Source of the DNA: a virus
DNA length: 26,396 bases
Virus record (IMG/VR): IMGVR_UViG_3300032677_000147
Span: 1 to 26,396 of that record
Reading direction: 5' to 3' (one strand)
Shown: positions 16,178 to 25,436 of the stretch, piece after piece
Layout: each line of letters begins with the position of its first letter
Position numbering within the stretch: the first letter of the stretch is position 1
Made by a program: the position numbers and the translations under genes
The notes under the pieces: model-generated
The model's input: the letters and a program-made list of their open reading frames with translations, nothing else
What the model was told of the DNA's origin: nothing
Databases searched by the model: none

Positions 16178-16483
16178 ATGGAAAAAGATCCTACGTCATA
16201 TTCAATTATCACTTATGGGTGGGTTTTCTCACTTGCTATTTTGGGTGGGATTGTTAACTTCATGCGTAAGTTAGCCCTAGGTCAAACACGCATTTTCAAT
16301 ATTGCCGAATTAGTCGGAGAAATAGTCACATCAGGATTTGCGGGAGTTCTGACGTTTTGGCTATGCGAAAACTCACAAATAGCGCCTTTGGTAACTGCTG
16401 CATTAGTCGGCATATCAGGACACATGGGAAGCAGGGCGCTTTTTTTGTTTGAAGATTTCTTGAAATCAAAATTTCCAGCATAA
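16178..16483 (+). CDS. Probable holin (LydA/phage holin superfamily III-like)
   Basis: 101 residues with three hydrophobic segments: roughly 9-28 (IITYGWVFSLAILGGIVNFM), 43-62 (LVGEIVTSGFAGVLTFWLCE) and 67-90 (IAPLVTAALVGISGHMGSRALF). The GWVFSLAILGGIVNFMRKL opening and the A-A-L-V-G-I-S-G-H-M-G-S-R motif are typical of LydA-like holins. It would make the inner-membrane lesion that triggers lysis. AGGAATAACATTC before the ATG is a fair ribosome binding site. The gene is separated from the spanin and endolysin genes by the 4-kb second fibre cassette, which is an unusual split of the lysis genes. Confidence 0.78.
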   Translation: MEKDPTSYSIITYGWVFSLAILGGIVNFMRKLALGQTRIFNIAELVGEIVTSGFAGVLTFWLCENSQIAPLVTAALVGISGHMGSRALFLFEDFLKSKFPA

Positions 16484-16491
16484 GGACAGAT

Positions 16492-16815
16492 ATGACCATT
16501 AGCCTTCCAGACTTTAAAAAAGGTGATTCGTTTACCGTTAATTGCACTTATTTGCAAAACGGCGTTCCATACGACATTACAAACATAGATATTAAAAGCC
16601 AAATTCGAGAAGCTGCGGTTTTAGTAACGGATCTAGTAATAACCAAAGCGGATCAAACAAATAATCCTGGCGTTTTTATTTTGACACCATCAAATTCAGA
16701 TACGTCTACATGGCCTTCTGGAAACTTGCTTTGTGATATTCAATTTACAGAGCAGGGAATAGTTAGATCAACAGAAACCTTTTACGTCTCACTCATTGAA
16801 CAGGTAACACTATGA
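16492..16815 (+). CDS. Small Ig-like/BppU-N-like protein ahead of the second fibre
   Basis: 107 residues. The sequence alternates short strands and reads like a single beta-sandwich: FKKGDSFTVNCTYLQNGVPYDITNIDIKSQIRE, then VFILTPSNSDTSTWPSGNLLCDIQF and a final STETFYVSLIEQVT. This K-G-D-(T/S)-F ... I-x-S-Q-(I/V)-R ... W-P-x-G-x-L-x-x-D-I pattern is common in small proteins encoded just before phage fibre genes and resembles the N-terminal domain of baseplate upper proteins. I infer that it joins the fibre to the tail tip. AAGGACAGAT precedes the ATG. The stop overlaps the ATG of the large fibre gene (ATGA), so the two are translated together. Confidence 0.72.
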   Translation: MTISLPDFKKGDSFTVNCTYLQNGVPYDITNIDIKSQIREAAVLVTDLVITKADQTNNPGVFILTPSNSDTSTWPSGNLLCDIQFTEQGIVRSTETFYVSLIEQVTL

Positions 16816-19800
16816 CCTTATCGGTAGAAATCCAACCAGTACAACTAAATTCGGTTGCGCTAGAGGTAACAGATAGCAATTTTACCGTTGAGCTTAACTT
16901 AGCCCCCATTGGAGTTAAAGGTGATATTGGAGAAGTAAATCCCATTACCATCGCAAATGCTGTGGCATCATCAGCATCAGCTACTAATGCCGCAAATTCA
17001 GCTACAGCATCTGCCACATCTGCCACCGCCGCCGCTGGATCAGCAACAGCAGCAGCTACTCAAGCAACCAATTCCGCAAACTCTGCCGCAACCGCTACGA
17101 CTCAAGCAACTAATGCAACGAATTCTGCTACTACAGCCACTACTCAGGCTGGTATAGCTACTACAAAAGCTACGGCAGCATCTGGATCAGCCACCGCAGC
17201 CGCAACATCAGCCACAAACTCCGCAACTAGCGCTACTAATTCGGCAAATAGCGCTACGGCTGCTGCTGGTTCAGCTACCAGCGCATCTTCATCTGCAAAT
17301 AGTACAGCCGCCTTACTTGCTTCTTTTAGAGGTGCGTTTTTAGGTTCTTTTGCATCAGATTCTGCTGCTGCTACTTTTGCATCTGCCAATAGCATTGCGC
17401 TAAACAATGGCATCATGTACGAAAATAACAGCGTATCTCCAGAAAAATTTCGTATATATAACGGAACTGCTTGGCAAGATTACGATGCAACTGCTCAAGC
17501 GTCTCAATCTGCCGCAGCATTAAGTGCTGCAAATGCCGCATCTAGCGCATCCAATGCTGCCAGTTCCGCAACTACCGCAACAACTCAAGCTACTAATGCT
17601 GCTGCATCTGCAACAAGCGCATCAGGTTCAGCAAGCACCGCCACTACTCAAGCTACTAATGCATCAAATAGCGCAACAGCAGCAGCGGGTTCGGCTACAA
17701 CGGCTACAACTCAAGCTACCAATGCCGCTAATAGCGCTACTGCATCTGCGGGATCAGCTTCCGCAGCAGCAGGATCGGCAAGCACCGCTACTACACAAGC
17801 TGGAATAGCAACTACCAAAGAATCTTCTGCAACAACATCAGCTACTAATGCAGCAACCAGCGCAACTAATGCAGCTAACTCTGCTACATCTGCTTCTGGA
17901 TCTGCATCGACCGCCACTACGCAAGCTGGAATAGCAACTACTCAGGCAACCAATGCAGCAGCTTCAGCTACATCTGCGTCTGGTTCAGCAAGTACAGCTA
18001 CTACCCAAGCTGGAAATGCCTCTACATCCGCTACAAATTCGGCAAATTCAGCAACCGCAGCGGCTGGATCAGCAACAACAGCATCTACACAAGCTACTAA
18101 TGCTGGTAATTCAGCCACCGCAGCGGCTACATCTGCAACAAATGCATCAAATAGCGCAACAGCAGCAGCAGCAAGCGCAGCCTCTATTAACCCTTCAAAC
18201 GTAGCAATTACAGGCGGAAATATTAACGGCGTTGCTATTGGCGCTACTACTCCAGCAACGGGTAAATTTACGACCCTTACATCTACTGGTGAAACAAACG
18301 CTGGTAGCTATACATTTACTGGTACTGGTAACCGCATCACTGGTGATTTTAGTAACGCTACTATAGCTAGTCGTGTTGCATTTCAAACAAGTACAGTTAA
18401 TGGAACAACTACATTAACACTTGCCCCCAATGGCACGTCTGTTAATTCAAACTTTTCTGCTGAATCTGATCCGCTATTAGTAAATTCATCTTTTGCACAA
18501 CTCGCAATTTTAGGTGGAAGTGATGCTCGTATTACGTCTTCAATTCGTGGAACAGGCACATACTTACCACTAACAATGTACACAGGCGGTAGCGAAAGAA
18601 TGCGTATTGATACAGGTGGTTTAGTTGGTATTGGTACTTCTACGCCATCAGGAAAACTCGATGTAACTGGAGGTGACGTAGTATTTAAGTCTGCATCAGA
18701 ACAATTTGTATTTATAAAAAGAACAGACACAGCAGTAGCAAATAACTATATTGGCGATATACGTTTTGATGGTTTAAATTCGTCGTCTGCAAATATACCT
18801 TACGCAAAATTTAATACTCAGATGACTGGTATTACGGCTGGCTCTGAAGCGGCTTATGTATCGCTTCAAGCAGTACGCTCTGGCTCATTATCTAACTTTC
18901 TAACTTATGATGGCTTAAATAATGTTTTAGCTTCCTATACTTCTGGTTTAGAAAGAATGCGTATTGACTCTGCTGGTAACGTAGGTATTGGTACTACTAC
19001 GCCTAACTTTGGTGGAAATACAGTTGCTTTAGCAGTAAATGGTTCATCGACTTCAGCGCTAAATTTAAAGGTAGCAGATGTAGGTGCGTTTACAGCTTCT
19101 TCAGGATCGGGCTATACCGCTATTGCAGATTCAAGAGCATCAGTAAATATGCAATTTGTTGTTGGCGCTTCAGAACGTATGCGTATTGATACTTCTGGTC
19201 GTTTGCTTGTTGGTACAACAGCAGCATCAGGATCTAATCTTCTTCAAGTTTCTACGGATGCTTTAATTCACGGCATTACTGTTGGTTTAGGTGGTGGTAG
19301 TCAGTCTTTAGGAACAGTGTTTGGGTATCAATCTTTAAGTAACAATACCACTGGGACTAATTTAAGTATTGGCTATCAAGCAATGAGTACCAATACAACT
19401 GGTGATGCGAATACCGCTGTTGGTAGATTTAAACCTTTATTTGCAAACACTACTGGCTCTAATAATGTGGCTATTGGTGACCAAGCAATGTTAAGTAATA
19501 CAACTGGAAGTTTAAATACCGCTATTGGTACACAAGCTCTTGTGTCAAACACCACTGCTTCTAACAACACCGCAGTAGGCTATCAAGCTGGTTATAGTAA
19601 TACTACTGGATATGAAAATACTTATATTGGAACTACTTCAGGATATGGAAGTACTATAGGAGTACAAAATTCTGCTGTTGGAAAAGATGTTTTGTATGCA
19701 AATACAAGTGGTTCATGTAATGCTGGATTAGGATATGCTGCGCTAAGATTAAATACAACTGGTGGGAATAATACTGCTTTAGGATATGAATCCTTATTTA

Positions 19801-20498
19801 ACAACACCACAGCATCTAACAACACCGCAGTAGGTTATCAAGCTGGGTATAGTAATACGACTGGGACATCAAATACTTATTTAGGTTATATAGCAGGAAC
19901 AAGCGCAACAGGGTCTGGAAACACTTTTATAGGTTTTTCTGCTGGGAATGGAGCTACATCTGGCGCATACAACACATCATTAGGTTATGCAGCAGGAAAT
20001 AATTTAACAACTGGAACTGGTTGTGTTTATATAGGAGTTAATCCATATAACGGAGCCTCTGGAGCAGCATCAAATGAAATAGTAATATGCTCCGTTTCAA
20101 TTGGAGGGAAAGGAACAAATACAGGATTCATTTCTCCAAATGGCGGTGCTATGTACCAAGGAAATAACTCTACCCTTTGGTCCATTACTTCTGACCAGCG
20201 TATTAAAGAAAATATTGTAACTCTTGAAAATGGGCTATCTACAATTATTGCTTTACGTCCAGTAGAATTTGATTATATCGAGACTAAAAAGCATGACATT
20301 AGTTTTATTGCTCAAGAATATCAAAAAGTATTGCCCAATCAAGTTAGCGAACACGCTGCGTCTTTAGCAGAAAAAGAAATAACAGGTGTGGATACTCTAT
20401 TGGGATTAACACCTAATCTTATCCCATATCTTGTAGCAGCAATCCAAGAACTCAACGCAAAAGTAACTGCCCTCGAATTACAATTAGGAGCTAAATAA
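16812..20498 (+). CDS. Large tail fibre with alanine heptads, beta-roll and S74 chaperone domain
   Basis: 1228 residues. Domains in order: an N-terminal beta domain (1-46); Ala/Ser/Thr heptad block 1 (about 49-168); a small globular insert ending in FRIYNGTAWQDYD (169-227); heptad block 2 (228-459); a segment with three ERMRID-x-x-G-x-(V/L)-(G/L)-(I/V)-GT units (about 595, 715 and 788); a roll of roughly 17-residue NTTG-x-x-NTA-(V/I)-GYQA repeats (about 836-1090); and a C-terminal Peptidase_S74 intramolecular chaperone (about 1120-1228) with the SDQRIKENI motif, Ser1127 and Lys1132. In endosialidase-type fibres the S74 domain trimerises the fibre and then cuts itself off at that serine. The whole looks like a trimeric adhesin-like fibre carrying a receptor-binding roll. 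Confidence 0.9.
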   Translation: MTLSVEIQPVQLNSVALEVTDSNFTVELNLAPIGVKGDIGEVNPITIANAVASSASATNAANSATASATSATAAAGSATAAATQATNSANSAATATTQATNATNSATTATTQAGIATTKATAASGSATAAATSATNSATSATNSANSATAAAGSATSASSSANSTAALLASFRGAFLGSFASDSAAATFASANSIALNNGIMYENNSVSPEKFRIYNGTAWQDYDATAQASQSAAALSAANAASSASNAASSATTATTQATNAAASATSASGSASTATTQATNASNSATAAAGSATTATTQATNAANSATASAGSASAAAGSASTATTQAGIATTKESSATTSATNAATSATNAANSATSASGSASTATTQAGIATTQATNAAASATSASGSASTATTQAGNASTSATNSANSATAAAGSATTASTQATNAGNSATAAATSATNASNSATAAAASAASINPSNVAITGGNINGVAIGATTPATGKFTTLTSTGETNAGSYTFTGTGNRITGDFSNATIASRVAFQTSTVNGTTTLTLAPNGTSVNSNFSAESDPLLVNSSFAQLAILGGSDARITSSIRGTGTYLPLTMYTGGSERMRIDTGGLVGIGTSTPSGKLDVTGGDVVFKSASEQFVFIKRTDTAVANNYIGDIRFDGLNSSSANIPYAKFNTQMTGITAGSEAAYVSLQAVRSGSLSNFLTYDGLNNVLASYTSGLERMRIDSAGNVGIGTTTPNFGGNTVALAVNGSSTSALNLKVADVGAFTASSGSGYTAIADSRASVNMQFVVGASERMRIDTSGRLLVGTTAASGSNLLQVSTDALIHGITVGLGGGSQSLGTVFGYQSLSNNTTGTNLSIGYQAMSTNTTGDANTAVGRFKPLFANTTGSNNVAIGDQAMLSNTTGSLNTAIGTQALVSNTTASNNTAVGYQAGYSNTTGYENTYIGTTSGYGSTIGVQNSAVGKDVLYANTSGSCNAGLGYAALRLNTTGGNNTALGYESLFNNTTASNNTAVGYQAGYSNTTGTSNTYLGYIAGTSATGSGNTFIGFSAGNGATSGAYNTSLGYAAGNNLTTGTGCVYIGVNPYNGASGAASNEIVICSVSIGGKGTNTGFISPNGGAMYQGNNSTLWSITSDQRIKENIVTLENGLSTIIALRPVEFDYIETKKHDISFIAQEYQKVLPNQVSEHAASLAEKEITGVDTLLGLTPNLIPYLVAAIQELNAKVTALELQLGAK
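16956..17315 (+). repeat. 21-base heptad-encoding repeats, block 1
   Basis: About 17 tandem seven-residue units of the form (N/G/T)-(S/Q)-A-T-x-A-x, with Ala at both core positions, encoded by degenerate 21-base units rich in GCA/GCT, ACT and AAT codons. Recurrent words include ACTCAAGCAACTAATGC. Confidence 0.85.
17493..18188 (+). repeat. 21-base heptad-encoding repeats, block 2
   Basis: About 33 further units of the same alanine heptad. Here the DNA is more homogeneous: ACTCAAGCTACTAATGC and GCAAGCACCGC-type words recur, and TTQAGIATT occurs in both blocks. Some units differ only by silent changes, suggesting repeated unequal exchange. Confidence 0.85.
19548..19610 (+). repeat. 63-base repeat, copy 1, in the fibre beta-roll
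   Basis: Encodes the series NTTASNNTAVGYQAGYSNTTG. It is nearly identical to copy 2 at 19803-19865, exactly 255 bases (five 17-residue units) away. Confidence 0.85.
19803..19865 (+). repeat. 63-base repeat, copy 2, in the fibre beta-roll
   Basis: Same protein sequence as copy 1 (19548-19610) with only a handful of silent or near-silent base changes, and in the same register of the roll. Confidence 0.85.
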
Positions 20499-20499
20499 T

Positions 20500-20838
20500 A
20501 TGAATACATACACATATAAAATTGCAGCACTCGATACAGCTAAATCTGTAGATGGATTAGTTGACGTAGTAGTAACGGCACATTACACAATTAACTGCAC
20601 AGACGGAACAGATTCTGTTGGCACTTATGGAACCGTAGGATTTGAATCACCAGATGCAGCCTCGTTTAAACCGTATGAGTCATTGACAGAAGAAGAAGTT
20701 GTAGGCTGGGTTAAAGAGAAAATTGATGTAGCGGGATTAGAGACATACCTAGATAAAGATCTTGAAGATAAAAAGAACCCCCCAATTGTGCAGTTGCCTA
20801 TTCCTTGGATTCCAGTAATTGATCCAGTAGCAGCTTAA
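20500..20838 (+). CDS. Conserved phage protein of unknown function after the fibre
   Basis: 112 residues, starting one base past the fibre stop, with AGGAGCTAAATAAT (inside the fibre end) as a good ribosome binding site. The N-terminal half is beta-rich (TYTYKIAALDT, VDVVVTAHYTINCTDGTDS, YGTVGFESPD). The C-terminal half has the segment LTEEEVVGWVKEKIDVAGLETYLDKDLEDKKNPP, followed by a Pro-rich LPIPWIPV. I have seen this layout in short proteins near the end of fibre operons in aquatic phages but do not know a function. A fibre-bound accessory or assembly protein is possible. A terminator follows 22 bases after the stop. Confidence 0.75.
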   Translation: MNTYTYKIAALDTAKSVDGLVDVVVTAHYTINCTDGTDSVGTYGTVGFESPDAASFKPYESLTEEEVVGWVKEKIDVAGLETYLDKDLEDKKNPPIVQLPIPWIPVIDPVAA

Positions 20839-20860
20839 ATACTTTCAACGCATCAATCTA

Positions 20861-20882
20861 ACCGCCTACGGGCGGTTTTTTT
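20861..20882 (+). terminator. Rho-independent terminator after the second fibre cassette
   Basis: Stem ACCGCC/GGCGGT (20861-20866 with 20871-20876) with a TACG loop and a run of seven T (20876-20882). The arms are almost the same as those of the 5253-5304 element. Confidence 0.9.
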
Positions 20883-20900
20883 ACGTCTAAAGGAAATGTA

Positions 20901-21143
20901 GTGGACTCCATTAAAGAGTTATTCAGAAATATATTTACAGAGCCAGACAACGCCACTTTTTGCATTGTCAAAATTGGCGCTGGGTTAACGGTGGTTTATG
21001 CACTTGCGACAGCCGCATTTCATCACTTATATCTTAGAGAATCTTTTGTTATTCAAGATTTTGGCGTGGGAATGGGCGCAGTTTTTGCAGGGGTTGGTGT
21101 TGCGCTAGGTCTTAAAAAAGATACTCCAGAAGGAAAGTTATGA
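20901..21143 (+). CDS. Small membrane protein in the lysis block (possible second holin/antiholin)
   Basis: 80 residues from a GTG start; AAAGGAAATGTA before it is a good ribosome binding site, and the nearby ATG (20896) runs straight into TAG. Two hydrophobic segments are visible: about 21-42 (FCIVKIGAGLTVVYALATAAFHH) and 52-70 (FGVGMGAVFAGVGVALGL), with a charged tail (KKDTPEGKL). It overlaps the i-spanin gene in an ATGA junction. Its size, two membrane spans and place just before Rz fit a holin, antiholin or pinholin. I do not recognise the family, and a clearer holin exists at 16178-16483, so the role is open. Confidence 0.7.
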   Translation: MDSIKELFRNIFTEPDNATFCIVKIGAGLTVVYALATAAFHHLYLRESFVIQDFGVGMGAVFAGVGVALGLKKDTPEGKL

Positions 21144-21616
21144 ACATACTCCCATTTATGCCGCAATCGCTATTAATGAAAGTTTTTGGCGTAATGATTG
21201 CGGCTGGAATTGCTATTGGATCTTTATTAATCGCCATACATCATTTTGAAAGTATCGGCTATGAACGGCGTGTTTCAGAGGATGAGATTGGTCTAAATAA
21301 AGACCTCGTACAAGCTCAAACCCAAACCTTGCTACTTCAACATCAACTAAATGAGGCTCAAAATGCACTTTCTAAAGCTAAGTCCGATTTACTTGCTATT
21401 AATACTGTTAACCGTAATGCTGTTAACGGGTTGCGGGTCAGTAACACTTCCTTCAACAGCGGTTTGCCCACAGATACCAGAGAGGCCCTTAGTAGGAGAA
21501 TCGCATCCCTCTCAAGCGTGGTCGAAGATTGTTCAGCAAGACTTGTCGAAGTGGCAAACGATGCTGATATCGCAATAGCAGAAGTCAATATGCTAGAAAG
21601 TGCATGGGCTAAATGA
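21140..21616 (+). CDS. Rz: i-spanin (Rz-like)
   Basis: 158 residues. Residues 13-33 (KVFGVMIAAGIAIGSLLIAIHH) form one N-terminal membrane span, followed by a long charged helical region (VSEDEIGLNKDLVQAQTQTLLLQHQLNEAQNALSKAKSDL) and a second helix near the end. This is the i-spanin layout: anchored in the inner membrane, with a periplasmic coiled coil that binds the o-spanin and fuses inner and outer membranes at lysis. The strongest evidence is the o-spanin gene nested inside it in the +1 frame. It starts in an ATGA overlap with the previous gene and ends in another with the endolysin gene. Here the spanin precedes the endolysin, the reverse of lambda's R-Rz order. Confidence 0.85.
   Translation: MNILPFMPQSLLMKVFGVMIAAGIAIGSLLIAIHHFESIGYERRVSEDEIGLNKDLVQAQTQTLLLQHQLNEAQNALSKAKSDLLAINTVNRNAVNGLRVSNTSFNSGLPTDTREALSRRIASLSSVVEDCSARLVEVANDADIAIAEVNMLESAWAK
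21363..21578 (+). CDS. Rz1: o-spanin lipoprotein (Rz1-like), nested within Rz
   Basis: 71 residues, fully inside the i-spanin gene in the +1 frame. The signal peptide (HFLKLSPIYLLLILLTVMLL) runs into the lipobox LTGC, so Cys24 would be lipidated and a mature lipoprotein of 48 residues would sit in the outer membrane. The mature part has several prolines (LPSTAVCPQIPERPL), as is usual for Rz1. ATG 21363 is preferred because GAGG lies six bases upstream; ATG 21351 is an alternative adding four residues. It pairs with Rz to link the two membranes during lysis. Genes nested in this way are easily missed by automatic annotation. Confidence 0.85.
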   Translation: MHFLKLSPIYLLLILLTVMLLTGCGSVTLPSTAVCPQIPERPLVGESHPSQAWSKIVQQDLSKWQTMLISQ

Positions 21617-22080
21617 CTAATAACGAAAAAGCATTTTTAGACATGATTGCCCACTCTGAAATAGGCGCTGCCTTGCTTGCTGTTTCAGACAATGGCTATA
21701 ACGTCATTGTTGGCAGTACAGCACAGCACCCAGACTTATTTACTTCTTATGTAAGTCACCCTAGAAAGCTAGTAAGACTAAGTGACACGCTGCAATCTAC
21801 GGCATCTGGAAGATACCAACTACTATCACGTTATTACAGCATCTACTGTATTCAGCTAGGCATCAAAGATTTTTCCCCAGCCAGCCAAGACATCATCGCT
21901 TTACAACAAATTAAAGAACGCCACGCATTAGATGACATCAACGCAGGGCGGTTTGAAGATGCTGTACGCAAATGCAACAACATCTGGGCAAGTTTGCCAG
22001 ATTCAACTTATGGGCAACACACCAACAAAATGAGTGATCTAAAAGCAGTATATGTAGAGGCTGGCGGCTCAATAGCATGA
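21613..22080 (+). CDS. R: Endolysin, lambda gpR-like lytic transglycosylase
   Basis: 155 residues that follow lambda R nearly from end to end: KAFLDMIAHSE, NGYNVIVGS, LFTSYVSHPRKLVRL, LQSTASGRYQLLSRYY, QLGIKDFSPASQDIIALQQIKERHAL and CNNIWASLPDSTYGQH all match the family. Glu16 (in AHSE) lines up with the catalytic glutamate of lambda endolysin, which cuts glycan strands to leave 1,6-anhydromuramic ends. It has no signal peptide, so it needs a holin to reach the cell wall. Start and end overlap neighbours in ATGA junctions. The length is close to lambda R (158). Confidence 0.93.
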   Translation: MTNNEKAFLDMIAHSEIGAALLAVSDNGYNVIVGSTAQHPDLFTSYVSHPRKLVRLSDTLQSTASGRYQLLSRYYSIYCIQLGIKDFSPASQDIIALQQIKERHALDDINAGRFEDAVRKCNNIWASLPDSTYGQHTNKMSDLKAVYVEAGGSIA

Positions 22081-22814
22081 AGATATTGCTGCTGGATATT
22101 GAAACGAGTCCTATGGAGGCGCTTGTATTTGGCTTATGGGATCAGAATATTAACTTCAAAAATATCATCGCAGAAGGTACTATTCTCTGCTGGGCTGCTA
22201 AGTAGTATGGATCAGATGAGATTATGTTTGATTCAGTACATCAATCTAGCCCTAGGGAAATGATTAAGGGGATACACGAACTCTTAAATGAGTGTGATGC
22301 TACCGTTACCTATAACGGGATTAACTTTGACCACAAGCACTTAAACGCCCAATTCTTACTGCATAAGCTAAAACCCCCAGCACCATATAAAACGATTGAT
22401 CTACTCAGAACCATGAAGGGTAGGTTTAAATTTCCATCGAACAAGCTGGACTACATCACCAGACGGCTCAATATTGGGAAAAAAACAGAGCATCAAGGGA
22501 TGGAACTCTGGCAAAAGTGCATGGCTGGTAATAAAGCAGCTTGGCGCACGATGCGGGAATATAACGAGAATGACGTACTGATTATGGAGGAGGTTTACAA
22601 GGCTGTTTTACCTTGGATTAAATCTCATCCTAATATGAACCTACTTTCAGAGGATCGATGCTGCTCTACTTGTGGCAGCCATTCCCTGCAAAAACGGGGC
22701 AACTCAATAAGCTCAGTAGGCACATATCAACGGTATCAATGTTTAACCTGTGGCTCATGGTCGCAAAGCTCAAATACTATTTTCGGTAGAGCAAAAATCA
22801 AGGCTGCGGCATGA
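22077..22814 (+). pseudogene. 3'-5' exonuclease (RNase H-like, DEDD type) with in-frame amber codon
   Basis: One continuous frame interrupted by TAG at 22203-22205. The first part (42 residues from ATG 22077, ATGA overlap with R) holds the ExoI motif LLLDIETSP (Asp7, Glu9). After the TAG the same frame continues with the ExoII motif TYNGINFD, the ExoIII motif YNENDV, and a C-terminal zinc ribbon (CSTC...CLTC). Protein similarity reads straight through (CWAAK-stop-YGSDE), and a Trp (TGG) at the stop would be natural for this family. The nearest restart (ATG 22224) yields 196 residues without the metal-binding Asp/Glu, so it would be inactive. The gene is thus a nonsense pseudogene, a suppressor-dependent gene or a sequencing artefact. 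Intact relatives would be ssDNA-trimming nucleases. Confidence 0.78.
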
Positions 22815-23251
22815 AGTTTTCGATCCGCAAGGCAAACATTAAATCGCCAAGGGTTAGGGCGCTAATTCTAAGGTTGCAAAAAGAAACCCTGCCACTCGAT
22901 CAGCCATATGAACCTATTAAAGGTGTCTGGTTTATCGCCTACTCAGAAAATGGAGATGCAGCCGGATATGCTGGGCTAGTTCAATCTACCCAATGGTGGG
23001 ACACGGCTTATTTATGTAGGGCAGGGGTTAGCTACAAATACAGAGGAAATGGACTCCAAAAACGGATGATTAAAGCCCGTATAAGAGCCGCTAAGACGAT
23101 GGGATTTAATTGGTTAATAAGTGATACATCCGATAACTCACCGTCTGCAAACAGCCTAATTAGCGCTGGATTCCGAATGTATGACCCATCTAAACCCTAC
23201 GCATTAAATAGCAGCCTATATTGGAGATTGAAATTGAGAGCATCAGAATGA
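22811..23251 (+). CDS. GNAT-family N-acetyltransferase
   Basis: 146 residues. The acetyl-CoA loop reads YKYRGNGLQKRMIKARIRAA (residues 75-94), with the R-G-x-G-L-Q core of GNAT motif A, preceded by a strand (TAYLCRAGV) and followed by LISDTSDNSPSANSLISAGFRMYD, the usual late GNAT segment (N-x-x-S-x-x-x-L-x-x-x-G-F). Substrate unknown; phage GNATs of this kind can modify host or phage proteins, small molecules or toxins. It starts in an ATGA overlap with the exonuclease-like gene and ends in another with the zinc-finger gene, so all three form one tightly coupled accessory set. Confidence 0.85.
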   Translation: MKFSIRKANIKSPRVRALILRLQKETLPLDQPYEPIKGVWFIAYSENGDAAGYAGLVQSTQWWDTAYLCRAGVSYKYRGNGLQKRMIKARIRAAKTMGFNWLISDTSDNSPSANSLISAGFRMYDPSKPYALNSSLYWRLKLRASE

Positions 23252-23463
23252 CAGACATATTCGATCAAGCATCAGACATTGAAGAACAGCACCGTGAACT
23301 TTCAATACGGGCGGCACGATTTAAGAATCAACCGATTAAATTTACAGGTCGATGTCTATATTGCAATGAAGAAGTTTCCAATGGAAGATTTTGCTATGGC
23401 GGGGATTGCAAAGAAGATTGGGAATTTGAGCAGAAAATCTCAAAAATCAAAGGTTTGCGCTAG
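23248..23463 (+). CDS. Small zinc-finger protein
   Basis: 71 residues from the ATG that overlaps the GNAT stop (ATGA). The cysteines form CLYCNEEVSNGRFCYGGDC (C-x2-C-x9-C-x4-C), one zinc site, followed by EDWEFEQKISK. Related short phage proteins end in R-F-C-x-x-x-C-x-x-D-W-E; here the second pair has four residues between the cysteines instead of the common three, a small variation. The N-terminal part is acidic and helical (DIFDQASDIEEQHRELSIRAA). Regulatory or DNA-end-binding roles have been guessed for such proteins; none is shown here. It ends in TAG and is the last plus-strand gene before the 448-base gap. Confidence 0.78.
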   Translation: MTDIFDQASDIEEQHRELSIRAARFKNQPIKFTGRCLYCNEEVSNGRFCYGGDCKEDWEFEQKISKIKGLR

Positions 23464-23530
23464 TTACCAATGGGGTAAAAAAGAATCATAAATGAACCCT
23501 TATAGCGGTTAAAGATCGTTTTATGAATCT

Positions 23531-23544
23531 TTCCATATCGGGAA
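23531..23544. promoter_or_regulatory. Operator-like dyad 1, TTCC-N6-GGAA
   Basis: TTCCATATCGGGAA. It shares outer halves with the dyad 49 bases downstream (23580-23593). Possible repressor or integration-regulator site; the binding protein is unknown. Confidence 0.4.
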
Positions 23545-23579
23545 GTTTTTGCTCATTTGGTCACATTTTTAACCATTTA

Positions 23580-23593
23580 TTCCCATTTGGGAA
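23580..23593. promoter_or_regulatory. Operator-like dyad 2, perfect palindrome
   Basis: TTCCCATTTGGGAA, a perfect 14-base palindrome of the same TTCC-N6-GGAA form as dyad 1. Confidence 0.45.
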
Positions 23594-23594
23594 A

Positions 23595-23617
23595 TGCGAT
23601 ATAGGGGGTATATCGCA
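23595..23617. repeat. Perfect 9-base inverted repeat around GGGGG
   Basis: TGCGATATA, five G, TATATCGCA. After one mismatch at each edge, further partial pairing extends outward. It has no T run, so it is not a terminator; it is operator-like. Confidence 0.55.
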
Positions 23618-23677
23618 ATTTCATTTATGATCTACAAGTTGAAAAATAATATAAATTCCGCAATTTCGGCACTAAAA

Positions 23678-23718
23678 ATCCCGCTAAAATAGCACCCGAA
23701 TTCCCGCTGTTTTCCCGC
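23678..23718 (+). repeat. Left set of TCCCGC boxes (possible integrase arm sites)
   Basis: Three direct copies of TCCCGC at 23679, 23702 and 23713; the last two are 11 bases apart. The first lies within the 13-mer ATCCCGCTAAAAT (23678-23690), which recurs exactly at 23882-23894. Confidence 0.6.
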
Positions 23719-23753
23719 AATGACCATTAAACCCCATATAACATATAGCTCTT

Positions 23754-23774
23754 TGGTGCCGGCCTCGGGCACCA
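23754..23774 (+). other. Candidate attP core (tRNA 3'-end-like)
   Basis: TGGTGCC, GGCCTCG, GGCACCA: two 7-base inverted arms around a 7-base centre, the geometry of tyrosine-recombinase core sites. CCGGCCTCGGGCACCA (23759-23774) reads like the 3' end of a bacterial tRNA (acceptor strand, discriminator A and CCA), most like a tRNA-Leu or similar whose 5' acceptor is GCCCGAG. No T-loop (TTCRA) lies upstream, so this is not a tRNA gene. It lies between the two sets of TCCCGC boxes and 138 bases before the integrase gene. Confidence 0.6.
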
Positions 23775-23881
23775 TAATTTCCTTTTTAATTCCCACTAAA
23801 AAGAAATAAGTAGTAAATACAAGGGTTTGCAGGTTGCCGTTTCTTCTTGTTTCCATTAAATTGGAAGAAATTAAACAATAG

Positions 23882-23911
23882 ATCCCGCTAAAATCCCGCA
23901 AAACATCCCGC
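23882..23911 (+). repeat. Right set of TCCCGC boxes abutting the integrase start
   Basis: Three direct copies of TCCCGC at 23883, 23894 and 23906, spaced 11 and 12 bases (about one helical turn). The last ends on the base before the integrase ATG. Confidence 0.6.
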
Positions 23912-24946
23912 ATGGCTTACATTAGAAAAACTCTTAAAGGCTATCGAGCCGAGATCGAAATACAAGGTGTACGCAAGAGCGCCTCCTTTGTGACTAAGCG
24001 GGAAGCCTTATTGTGGGTCGCTAAAGAAGAAACAGCTATTCGTGAAGATTCTAAAACTGCGCCAGCCCATAAGTACACCTTAAAAGATGCGCTGGTTAAA
24101 TACCGTGATGAGGTAAGCCCAGACAATGCGGGATCCAGATGGGAGCAAATTCGGATTGATGCGTTTTTAGCTCATCCTGAATGGTTGCCGCTATCCAAGA
24201 AGATTGGACTTATTAACCCTACTGACTTTGAAAACTTTTCTAAAGAACGATCTAAGACCGTCAAAGATGGCACTATTTTGCGGGAATTAGGAATGCTCTC
24301 AGGCGTGATGGAGACCGCTAGGCTGCGTTGGCAATGGGTCAAGGAAAATCCCGTGCGGGATTCTAAGAAGCCAAAAGAGCCGCCAAGTCGTAAAAGGTTA
24401 ATTACTAGACCAGAAATTAAAGCAATCTTAAGGGGTCTTGATTACAGCCCTATAGCGCCACACATCAATTCTTTAACTCAATCTATTGCCGTTTGTTTCT
24501 TATTGGCTCTGCGTACGGGAATGAGGGCAGGGGATATGACGGGACTGCATTGGAGCAACGTCAAACCCCGCCACCTAGTCATAGAGATCGATAAAATTGG
24601 CAGAAGGACGGGAATGGGGCGAGATGTACCCTTGTCTAAAAAAGCCGTTCGCATAGTCAATAAAATGCGTGGTTTTGATAAAGAATCTGTTTTTTCCCTT
24701 AAACCGCAAACTTTAGATGCCCGTTTTAGAACCATTCGAGAACGCCAAGGCTTATCAGGGTTTACTTTTCACGATACACGCCATACTGCGGCAACTTGGA
24801 TGGCTGGTAAATTTAAAAGCAATAAAGACGTAACTGCCCAGCAAGCTATTTTTGATATGTGCAAAATCTTTGGATGGACAGACCCCAAAAGGGCGTTGGA
24901 ATATTACAATCCAAATCCTGAAGATGTGGCCTCCAGATTAGATTAG
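23912..24946 (+). CDS. int: Tyrosine-family phage integrase
   Basis: 344 residues. The N-terminus (MAYIRKTLKGYRAEIEIQGVRKSASFVTKREA) is the typical arm-binding/AP2-like domain of phage integrases. The middle (about 60-150) is the core-binding SAM-like domain. The catalytic domain has Arg205 (in TGMRAGD), Lys228 in the beta turn, His287-x-x-Arg290-His291 (in HDTRH), Trp322 in place of the second His, and Tyr331 or Tyr332 (in LEYYNP) as nucleophile. All catalytic residues are present. There is no ribosome binding site before the ATG; instead the TCCCGC boxes run up to it. The 3' end overlaps the convergent minus-strand gene by 4 bases. It would join attP to a host tRNA 3' end and, with an excisionase, reverse this. 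Confidence 0.95.
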   Translation: MAYIRKTLKGYRAEIEIQGVRKSASFVTKREALLWVAKEETAIREDSKTAPAHKYTLKDALVKYRDEVSPDNAGSRWEQIRIDAFLAHPEWLPLSKKIGLINPTDFENFSKERSKTVKDGTILRELGMLSGVMETARLRWQWVKENPVRDSKKPKEPPSRKRLITRPEIKAILRGLDYSPIAPHINSLTQSIAVCFLLALRTGMRAGDMTGLHWSNVKPRHLVIEIDKIGRRTGMGRDVPLSKKAVRIVNKMRGFDKESVFSLKPQTLDARFRTIRERQGLSGFTFHDTRHTAATWMAGKFKSNKDVTAQQAIFDMCKIFGWTDPKRALEYYNPNPEDVASRLD

Positions 24947-25167
24947 CTTGCTAAATAACGTCTAATTTCTGATCCAGTTATACGGCCATCAACAGAACGT
25001 ATTTTTCCTTCTAAAATTCTTTTAGTTAACGTCTTTGGTGTAATGCCAATTTGTTTTGCAGCATCTTTAAGGTTGTATGAAACTAGGGCGCTTATAGCCT
25101 TTTCTGCCCCTGCCTGGGCAGCCGCAAATAACATTGAACTTAATTTTGATTCTTCTATTGTAATCAT
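24943..25167 (-). CDS. Small HTH protein, excisionase/MerR-like
   Basis: 74 residues. The C-terminal 40 read LKDAAKQIGITPKTLTKRILEGKIRSVDGRITGSEIRRYL, a winged-helix pattern of the MerR/excisionase type (A-A-x-x-(I/L)-G-(I/V)-T-x-x-T-L-x-x-x-I-x-x-G-x-I). The N-terminal 30 residues form an alanine-rich helix. It lies tail-to-tail with the integrase, their ends overlapping by 4 bases, and is the last gene of a minus-strand set joined by short overlaps. Both the fold and place support an excisionase or recombination directionality factor, but a plain transcriptional regulator is also possible. Confidence 0.72.
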   Translation of the reverse strand: MITIEESKLSSMLFAAAQAGAEKAISALVSYNLKDAAKQIGITPKTLTKRILEGKIRSVDGRITGSEIRRYLAS

Positions 25168-25436
25168 TTGACATTACCCCGTAATCTTTCTGCGACCAAT
25201 GTTGCATAGCCAGCAATGTCATGCCATGAATCATCATAATTTGGATCGCCATTAAGAATTCTGGCGATTTTATGAACAATCATGTCTAAAGACTCCATTT
25301 GATCTGGGTGCAATTTAGACCAATTAGGAGTGGTTTGCATTACATACTTTAAATTCTGAGAGATCGATGCGTGATCTACAAACTTCCCGTAGCGAGTTCC
25401 ACGTTCTTCTAAAGTCTTGTTAATGTTAGTCATCAT
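25164..25436 (-). CDS. DUF6378-like phage protein
   Basis: 90 residues. It shows the strongly conserved pattern of this family: ERGTRYGKFVDHASISQNLK, then LHPDQMESLDMIVHKIARILNGDPNYDDSWHDIAGYATLVAE. The H-K-I-A-R ... D-S-W-H-D-I-x-G-Y arrangement of charged residues resembles metal-binding helices in MazG-like/nucleotide-related proteins, but no function is established that I know of. Two ATG codons lie in a row; the first overlaps the previous stop in an ATGA junction (start 25436). It overlaps the HTH gene downstream by 4 bases, so all are probably one early transcript. Confidence 0.8.
   Translation of the reverse strand: MMTNINKTLEERGTRYGKFVDHASISQNLKYVMQTTPNWSKLHPDQMESLDMIVHKIARILNGDPNYDDSWHDIAGYATLVAERLRGNVK

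Follow-up and report, generated by a model that had tools for sequence, protein, structure and literature searches.

Positions 23678–23911 of the window, the whole 26,396-nt stretch of viral DNA analysed here, are almost certainly the attachment site (attP) of a lambda-type temperate phage with a Polynucleobacter-like host, an explanation that extends to the recombination mechanism proposed below. The decisive evidence is the attP/attL/attR trio of one phage, which bears out the central claim of the initial annotation, that an attP of a lambda-type integrase lies here next to int. What began as a guess from sequence alone is now an attP mapped precisely, together with the host tRNA and the junctions at either end of the prophage.

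Integrated copies define both junctions

Two viral contigs, L002 (IMG/VR 3300032665_000749) and L003 (3300032561_000288), encode an integrase identical to that of the window. From 23759 towards the right, neither differs from the window over the stretch compared, and to the left of 23759 both bear a complete tRNA-Leu(UAA) gene; this junction is attL. The complementary junction, attR, lies in L095 (3300032665_000711), a contig that shares its sample with L002 and was retrieved through a 21-base word from the P arm. It matches the window over 16196–23774 with two mismatches (16474 and 17540) and continues into other DNA from 23775. The sequence common to the two junctions is exactly 23759–23774 (+), CCGGCCTCGGGCACCA, the same 16 bases that had been singled out as a core resembling a tRNA 3′ end; bounded by the attL and attR divergence points, this attP/attB identity block is the 3′ end of tRNA-Leu(UAA). 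When viral contigs were scanned with the 16-base core, L095 (attR) and the known attL contigs were, among the matches listed, the only ones analysed. Because L002 and L095 share a sample and have complementary junctions, we infer that they represent opposite ends of a single kind of integrant. Integrated relatives had been predicted to split at this core, and they do so in L002, L003 and L095 and in the related prophages G004, G086 and G149. A nucleotide search of phage records returned only a short match at about 25200–25290, in a hypothetical gene and not in int or the attachment site.

The window was described as unintegrated, and the record does hold the attP junction, with endolysin and other late genes on its left and int and further phage genes on its right. 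The caveat is that the junction between tandem prophages has the same sequence as attP and would look alike, and integrated copies of this phage do occur in other records. Even so, it is unlikely that the window represents a tandem-prophage junction or an assembly join rather than the attP of a free phage: it contains no tRNA gene, and its P and P′ arms agree at every base around the core with those of the integrated copies, which makes a chimaeric join improbable.

Among the other genes of the window, 16812–20498 encodes, as judged by eye, a long Ala/Ser/Thr-rich repetitive tail-fibre-like protein with SATNAANSATA repeats and a C-terminal stretch resembling the S74 chaperone domain. A GNAT acetyltransferase gene (22811–23251; PF00583, 9.2e-7), situated between the lysis region and attP, is a possible cargo gene.

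Host and target tRNA

A host tRNA gene was expected to carry the core, and tRNA-Leu(UAA) does: the 126 bases leading to the attL core find a match at the tRNA-Leu locus of 179 of the 186 genomes in the group around Polynucleobacter sp. MWH-Berg-3C6. Over the attL host side, leader included, identity is 91–99% in the best-matching genomes of this Polynucleobacter group. Because both the tRNA and its leader match that group, the host appears to be a Polynucleobacter-like bacterium, and at that level a host link is gained for a freshwater phage so far seen in metagenomes only. No genome of the Polynucleobacter-centred group matched the 93 bases beyond attR, which is why an exact empty attB was not seen; the DNA 3′ of the tRNA-Leu locus varies from genome to genome in this group.

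Arm boxes are paired across the core

The six direct copies of TCCCGC lie, as first reported, three on each side of the core on the + strand. The P arm (23678–23718, +) consists of three boxes of the form [AT]TCCCGC[TA], with hexamers at 23679–23684, 23702–23707 and 23713–23718, and the P′ arm (23883–23911, +) of three boxes starting at 23883, 23894 and 23906, the last abutting the int ATG. The 13-mer said to be shared between the sets, ATCCCGCTAAAAT, is exact at 23678–23690 and 23882–23894, and [A/T]TCCCGC[T/A] describes the boxes better than bare TCCCGC. A spacing of 11–12 bases within sets holds for three of the four intervals and not for the fourth (23 and 11 in P; 11 and 12 in P′). TCCCGC is absent from the rest of the + strand of the window, its six copies in 234 bp are the top count among the window's non-simple hexamers, and 100 dinucleotide shuffles gave at most two copies of it and at most five of the best hexamer of any kind. 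These boxes are putative arm-type integrase sites. Four GCGGGA words inside int (23998–24360) were set aside as extra sites, being in opposite orientation and within coding sequence. Left of the P arm, a hairpin, TGCGATATAGGGGGTATATCGCA, at 23595–23617 is followed by T-rich DNA and is a candidate terminator for the genes on its left.

Related integrases show how these boxes behave. The family set comprised about 30 further members from viral contigs and others from genomes of the class. First, prophages with 57–71% identical integrases occupy the same tRNA in G004 (attL 105,583, attR 90,778), G086 (attL/attR 671,571 and 708,862, 37.3 kb apart) and G149, and each has its own arm box, ATTCCCCCA / TTCCCCCA, ATCCCGA and ATTCCGT, respectively, which occurs both in the P′ arm, ahead of int, and in the P arm at attR.

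Second, for 23 attPs the 80 bases that precede int (P′) were compared with the core-free P flank, and the highest-scoring ungapped match was recorded; in G005, P′ was taken as the corresponding stretch beyond the core. The scores of each phage's own P′–P pair sum to 254, versus a permuted mean of 180 (sd 9.9), a value reached in none of 20,000 permutations; with the P arm reverse-complemented as a control, 2749 of 20,000 reach the observed value, which is not significant. In each phage, thus, boxes on the two sides of the core form a matching set of the same orientation. The proposal that TCCCGC itself would be conserved among phages with this integrase holds only in part: the literal letters are not conserved among related integrases, because they change from phage to phage, and each phage has its own box in both arms, so that the reading as arm sites stands in an improved form.

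Third, box similarity follows the identity of the arm domain once the contribution of the catalytic domain is removed (partial r 0.22, permutation p 0.012), a small effect among related sequences. The 23 attPs with paired arms are a ready data set on the joint change of integrase arm domains and arm sites.

Fourth, in G005 (L006, L008 and L012) the integrase is 66% identical and its gene is flipped, with the 3′ end towards the core; the core, the conserved spacer and the boxes nonetheless retain their order and orientation. With int flipped and the arms in place, the boxes serve recombination and not merely int expression, and are part of attP. The promoter would then be a layer separate from the attP boxes.

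These observations also bear on whether the boxes might be operators of a regulator of int, or of the phage, next to a core whose likeness to a tRNA is incidental. The P′ boxes do extend from the promoter-like site as far as the int ATG, at the Shine-Dalgarno position, but the P arm carries the same box some 200 bp off, across the core, the G005 boxes stay with the core when int is flipped, and in integrated copies the break falls between the two sets of boxes. We consider this account very improbable: the attL/attR pair refutes an operator as the sole function, and regulation by Int at the boxes would be a by-product of attP, not an alternative to it.

Core and spacer

The inverted repeat TGGTGCC-GGCCTCG-GGCACCA, described as 7-base arms around a 7-base centre, is exact at 23754–23774. 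Its left arm, TGGTGCC (23754–23760, +), is the phage-side half and the candidate C half-site, missing from attL and present in attR; its right arm, GGCACCA (23768–23774, +), from the tRNA acceptor end plus CCA, is the C′ half-site. Given this C-7-C′ geometry, the centre GGCCTCG (23761–23767, +) is the presumed 7-bp overlap in which strands would be exchanged. Aligned on GGCACCA, the cores of relatives show the same 7-7-7 arrangement of half-site, seven bases and half-site, with GGCACCA exact in 18 of the 23 attPs. The half opposite ranges in the family from the perfect complement found in the window to TTTCC-like sequences; the TGGTGCC position reads CGTTTCC in G086 and CGATTCC in G149. Because TGGTGCC is not kept in all relatives, the perfection of the inverted repeat is in part peculiar to this phage.

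That the repeat and its T-rich tail are an intrinsic terminator of the late operon instead of a recombination core has next to no chance of being right: a scanner flagged 23754–23774 as terminator-like (7 pairs, 5 of them G-C), but its right arm is a tRNA 3′ end, integration splits it, relatives retain GGCACCA often without the complementary arm, a proper T-run is missing after it (TAATTTCCTT), and the attL/attR junctions refute termination as its main role.

Between the recombination core and the candidate int promoter lies a conserved spacer (23775–23833, +) with a short inverted repeat, CTTTTTA..TAAAAAG, followed by AAATACAAGGGTTT. It is conserved also in the relative with flipped int and is likely to be a binding region for a host factor or a recombination directionality factor (RDF). 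An IHF-like site (WATCARNNNNTTR, at most one mismatch allowed) was absent from 23600–23911; other host factors are possible.

Integrase, promoter and candidate RDF

The int gene (23912–24946, +) encodes a 344-aa tyrosine integrase with approximate arm-binding (1–50), core-binding (55–150) and catalytic (160–344) domains. It matches PF00589 (6.5e-16) and phrog_1 (4.8e-41), and, of the conserved catalytic residues, it carries R205, H287, R290, W322 and Y331. The AlphaFold2 model (pLDDT 88.8 overall) predicts a b-b-b-a N-terminal domain, with strands at 2–7, 10–17 and 20–26 and a helix at 29–48 (pLDDT about 90), and the solved structure that it matches best is that of full-length lambda Int bound to core DNA (1z1b, E 7e-11). 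By this model, the protein folds like lambda Int, including a predicted three-strand arm-binding domain. Pfam and NCBIfam gave no named family above cut-off for the N-terminal domain, and Pfam Arm-DNA-bind_4 matched one relative only (E 0.089). In the L015 integrase (G086), the arginine of the catalytic HxxR is replaced by lysine (HDTKH versus HDTRH), which may leave this 37-kb prophage incapable of excision by its own integrase.

A promoter-like sequence, TTGCCG-N17-TAAATT, precedes int at 23834–23862 (+). The pattern TTGNNN-N17-TAWAWW aligns in the window and in each of the other five members compared whose int is read away from the core, and is missing where int is flipped (G005); in a generic promoter scan the window's copy falls below threshold and is weak by consensus. 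An SD-like tetramer precedes 1 of 22 family int genes, versus 11 of 26 other genes of the window. P′ boxes running up to the ATG with no Shine-Dalgarno sequence suggest weak translation of int, with room for repression.

Downstream, a 74-aa winged-HTH protein (24943–25167, −) is a candidate excisionase/RDF; genes for homologues lie close to int in L005, L006 (int flipped), L015, L219 and L220. RdfS and Pukovnik Xis are among its top fold matches, at E of at least 0.1, and Pfam and NCBIfam gave no named family above cut-off. Because no fold match is better than E 0.076, the RDF role is a reasoned guess.

Targets of the integrase family

The tRNA genes that precede family int genes are Leu (several anticodons), Thr, Phe or Arg, and nearly always end in GGCACCA. 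In L231, L237 and L245 the exact tRNA-like half, TGGTGCC, sits on the P side, so the tRNA there may point the other way. An automatic core search gave no convincing core for the distant relative L246. It is possible, although we hold it only tentatively and think it rather doubtful, that these proteins make up a little-described integrase family in which one half-site is fixed as GGCACCA, tRNAs of several amino acids are targeted, arm boxes turn over quickly with the N-terminal domain, and the att module stays in place upon inversion of int. If true, the family would be a natural set for reading the recognition code of arm domains.

Three loci are of separate interest. In L296 (G244:C48, 946–1232), a family integrase lies behind a tRNA-Leu-like 3′ half that is preceded by a group I intron family match (45.1 bits, gathering 50, E 3e-10); this attachment site is probably an intron-bearing tRNA-Leu. 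A third copy of GGCCTCGGGCACCA stands without arm boxes at G004:C24:87801-87815 (L011), 3 kb past attR, and may mark where an older element at this tRNA ended. L305 and L310 (G547) have the same sequence upstream of int and different tRNA genes (Leu-CAA and Arg-CCT), which share the GGCACCA end and differ in the preceding seven bases; a tolerance of mismatches in the overlap is possible.

Proposed mechanism

We propose that the N-terminal three-strand domain of Int binds the TCCCGC arm boxes, and that its core-binding and catalytic domains bind the half-sites TGGTGCC/GGCACCA. Strands would be exchanged inside the seven bases GGCCTCG, with attP and the host tRNA-Leu(UAA) 3′ end as partners. Insertion would yield attL, an intact tRNA adjoining P′ and int, and, at the opposite end, attR, made up of the P arm and a repeat of the 16-bp core. 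Because the putative int promoter is placed between the core and the P′ boxes, bound Int, and probably the winged-HTH candidate RDF, would repress int.

Comparison with known systems

The site is a further member of a well-known kind, the lambda-type, tRNA-targeting attP. Like lambda, this phage has a three-domain tyrosine integrase with an N-terminal arm-binding domain, by fold match, and, at the sequence level, arm-type boxes that flank a core whose inverted half-sites, different in sequence from the boxes, surround a presumed 7-bp overlap. Unlike in lambda, no IHF site was recognized in 23600–23911, and sequence identity is 18% over the fold alignment; the attB of lambda is not a tRNA gene.

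Another close system is the prophage of Polynucleobacter sp. MWH-Berg-3C6 (L005/G004), which shares a 71% identical integrase, tRNA-Leu(UAA), the spacer and the RDF-like gene, and differs in its arm box, ATTCCCCCA, and in having its two core copies only 14.8 kb apart. Mycobacteriophages of Clusters K and L likewise combine a tRNA core, putative arm-site pairs on either side and a lambda-like integrase (PMC10865867), but in mycobacteriophages the anticodon loop is a common place for the core, whereas the window core is a tRNA 3′ end with CCA.

In KplE1 of E. coli, attL overlaps the int promoter, and Int (IntS) and TorI repress int (PMC2951348). The order and orientation of tRNA, core, int promoter (a promoter-like site here), P′ boxes and int, termed 'STI', are those of KplE1 IntS/TorI, and the tRNA stands ahead of int in the same orientation after integration in L002, L003, L014, L015 and L017. 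If the candidate RDF and the promoter-like site are what they seem, the window phage would also share with KplE1 a separate RDF and an att region overlapping the int promoter. The two systems differ in the target, tRNA-Leu(UAA) here and argW in KplE1, and in the arm boxes, the P′ sites of IntS carrying TAAA (PMC2951348); unlike in KplE1, the window boxes lie between the promoter-like site and the ATG, touching the ATG, and one close relative of the window phage, G005, has the convergent (OC) arrangement instead of STI. By analogy with KplE1, the STI arrangement of the window phage predicts that Int autorepresses int.
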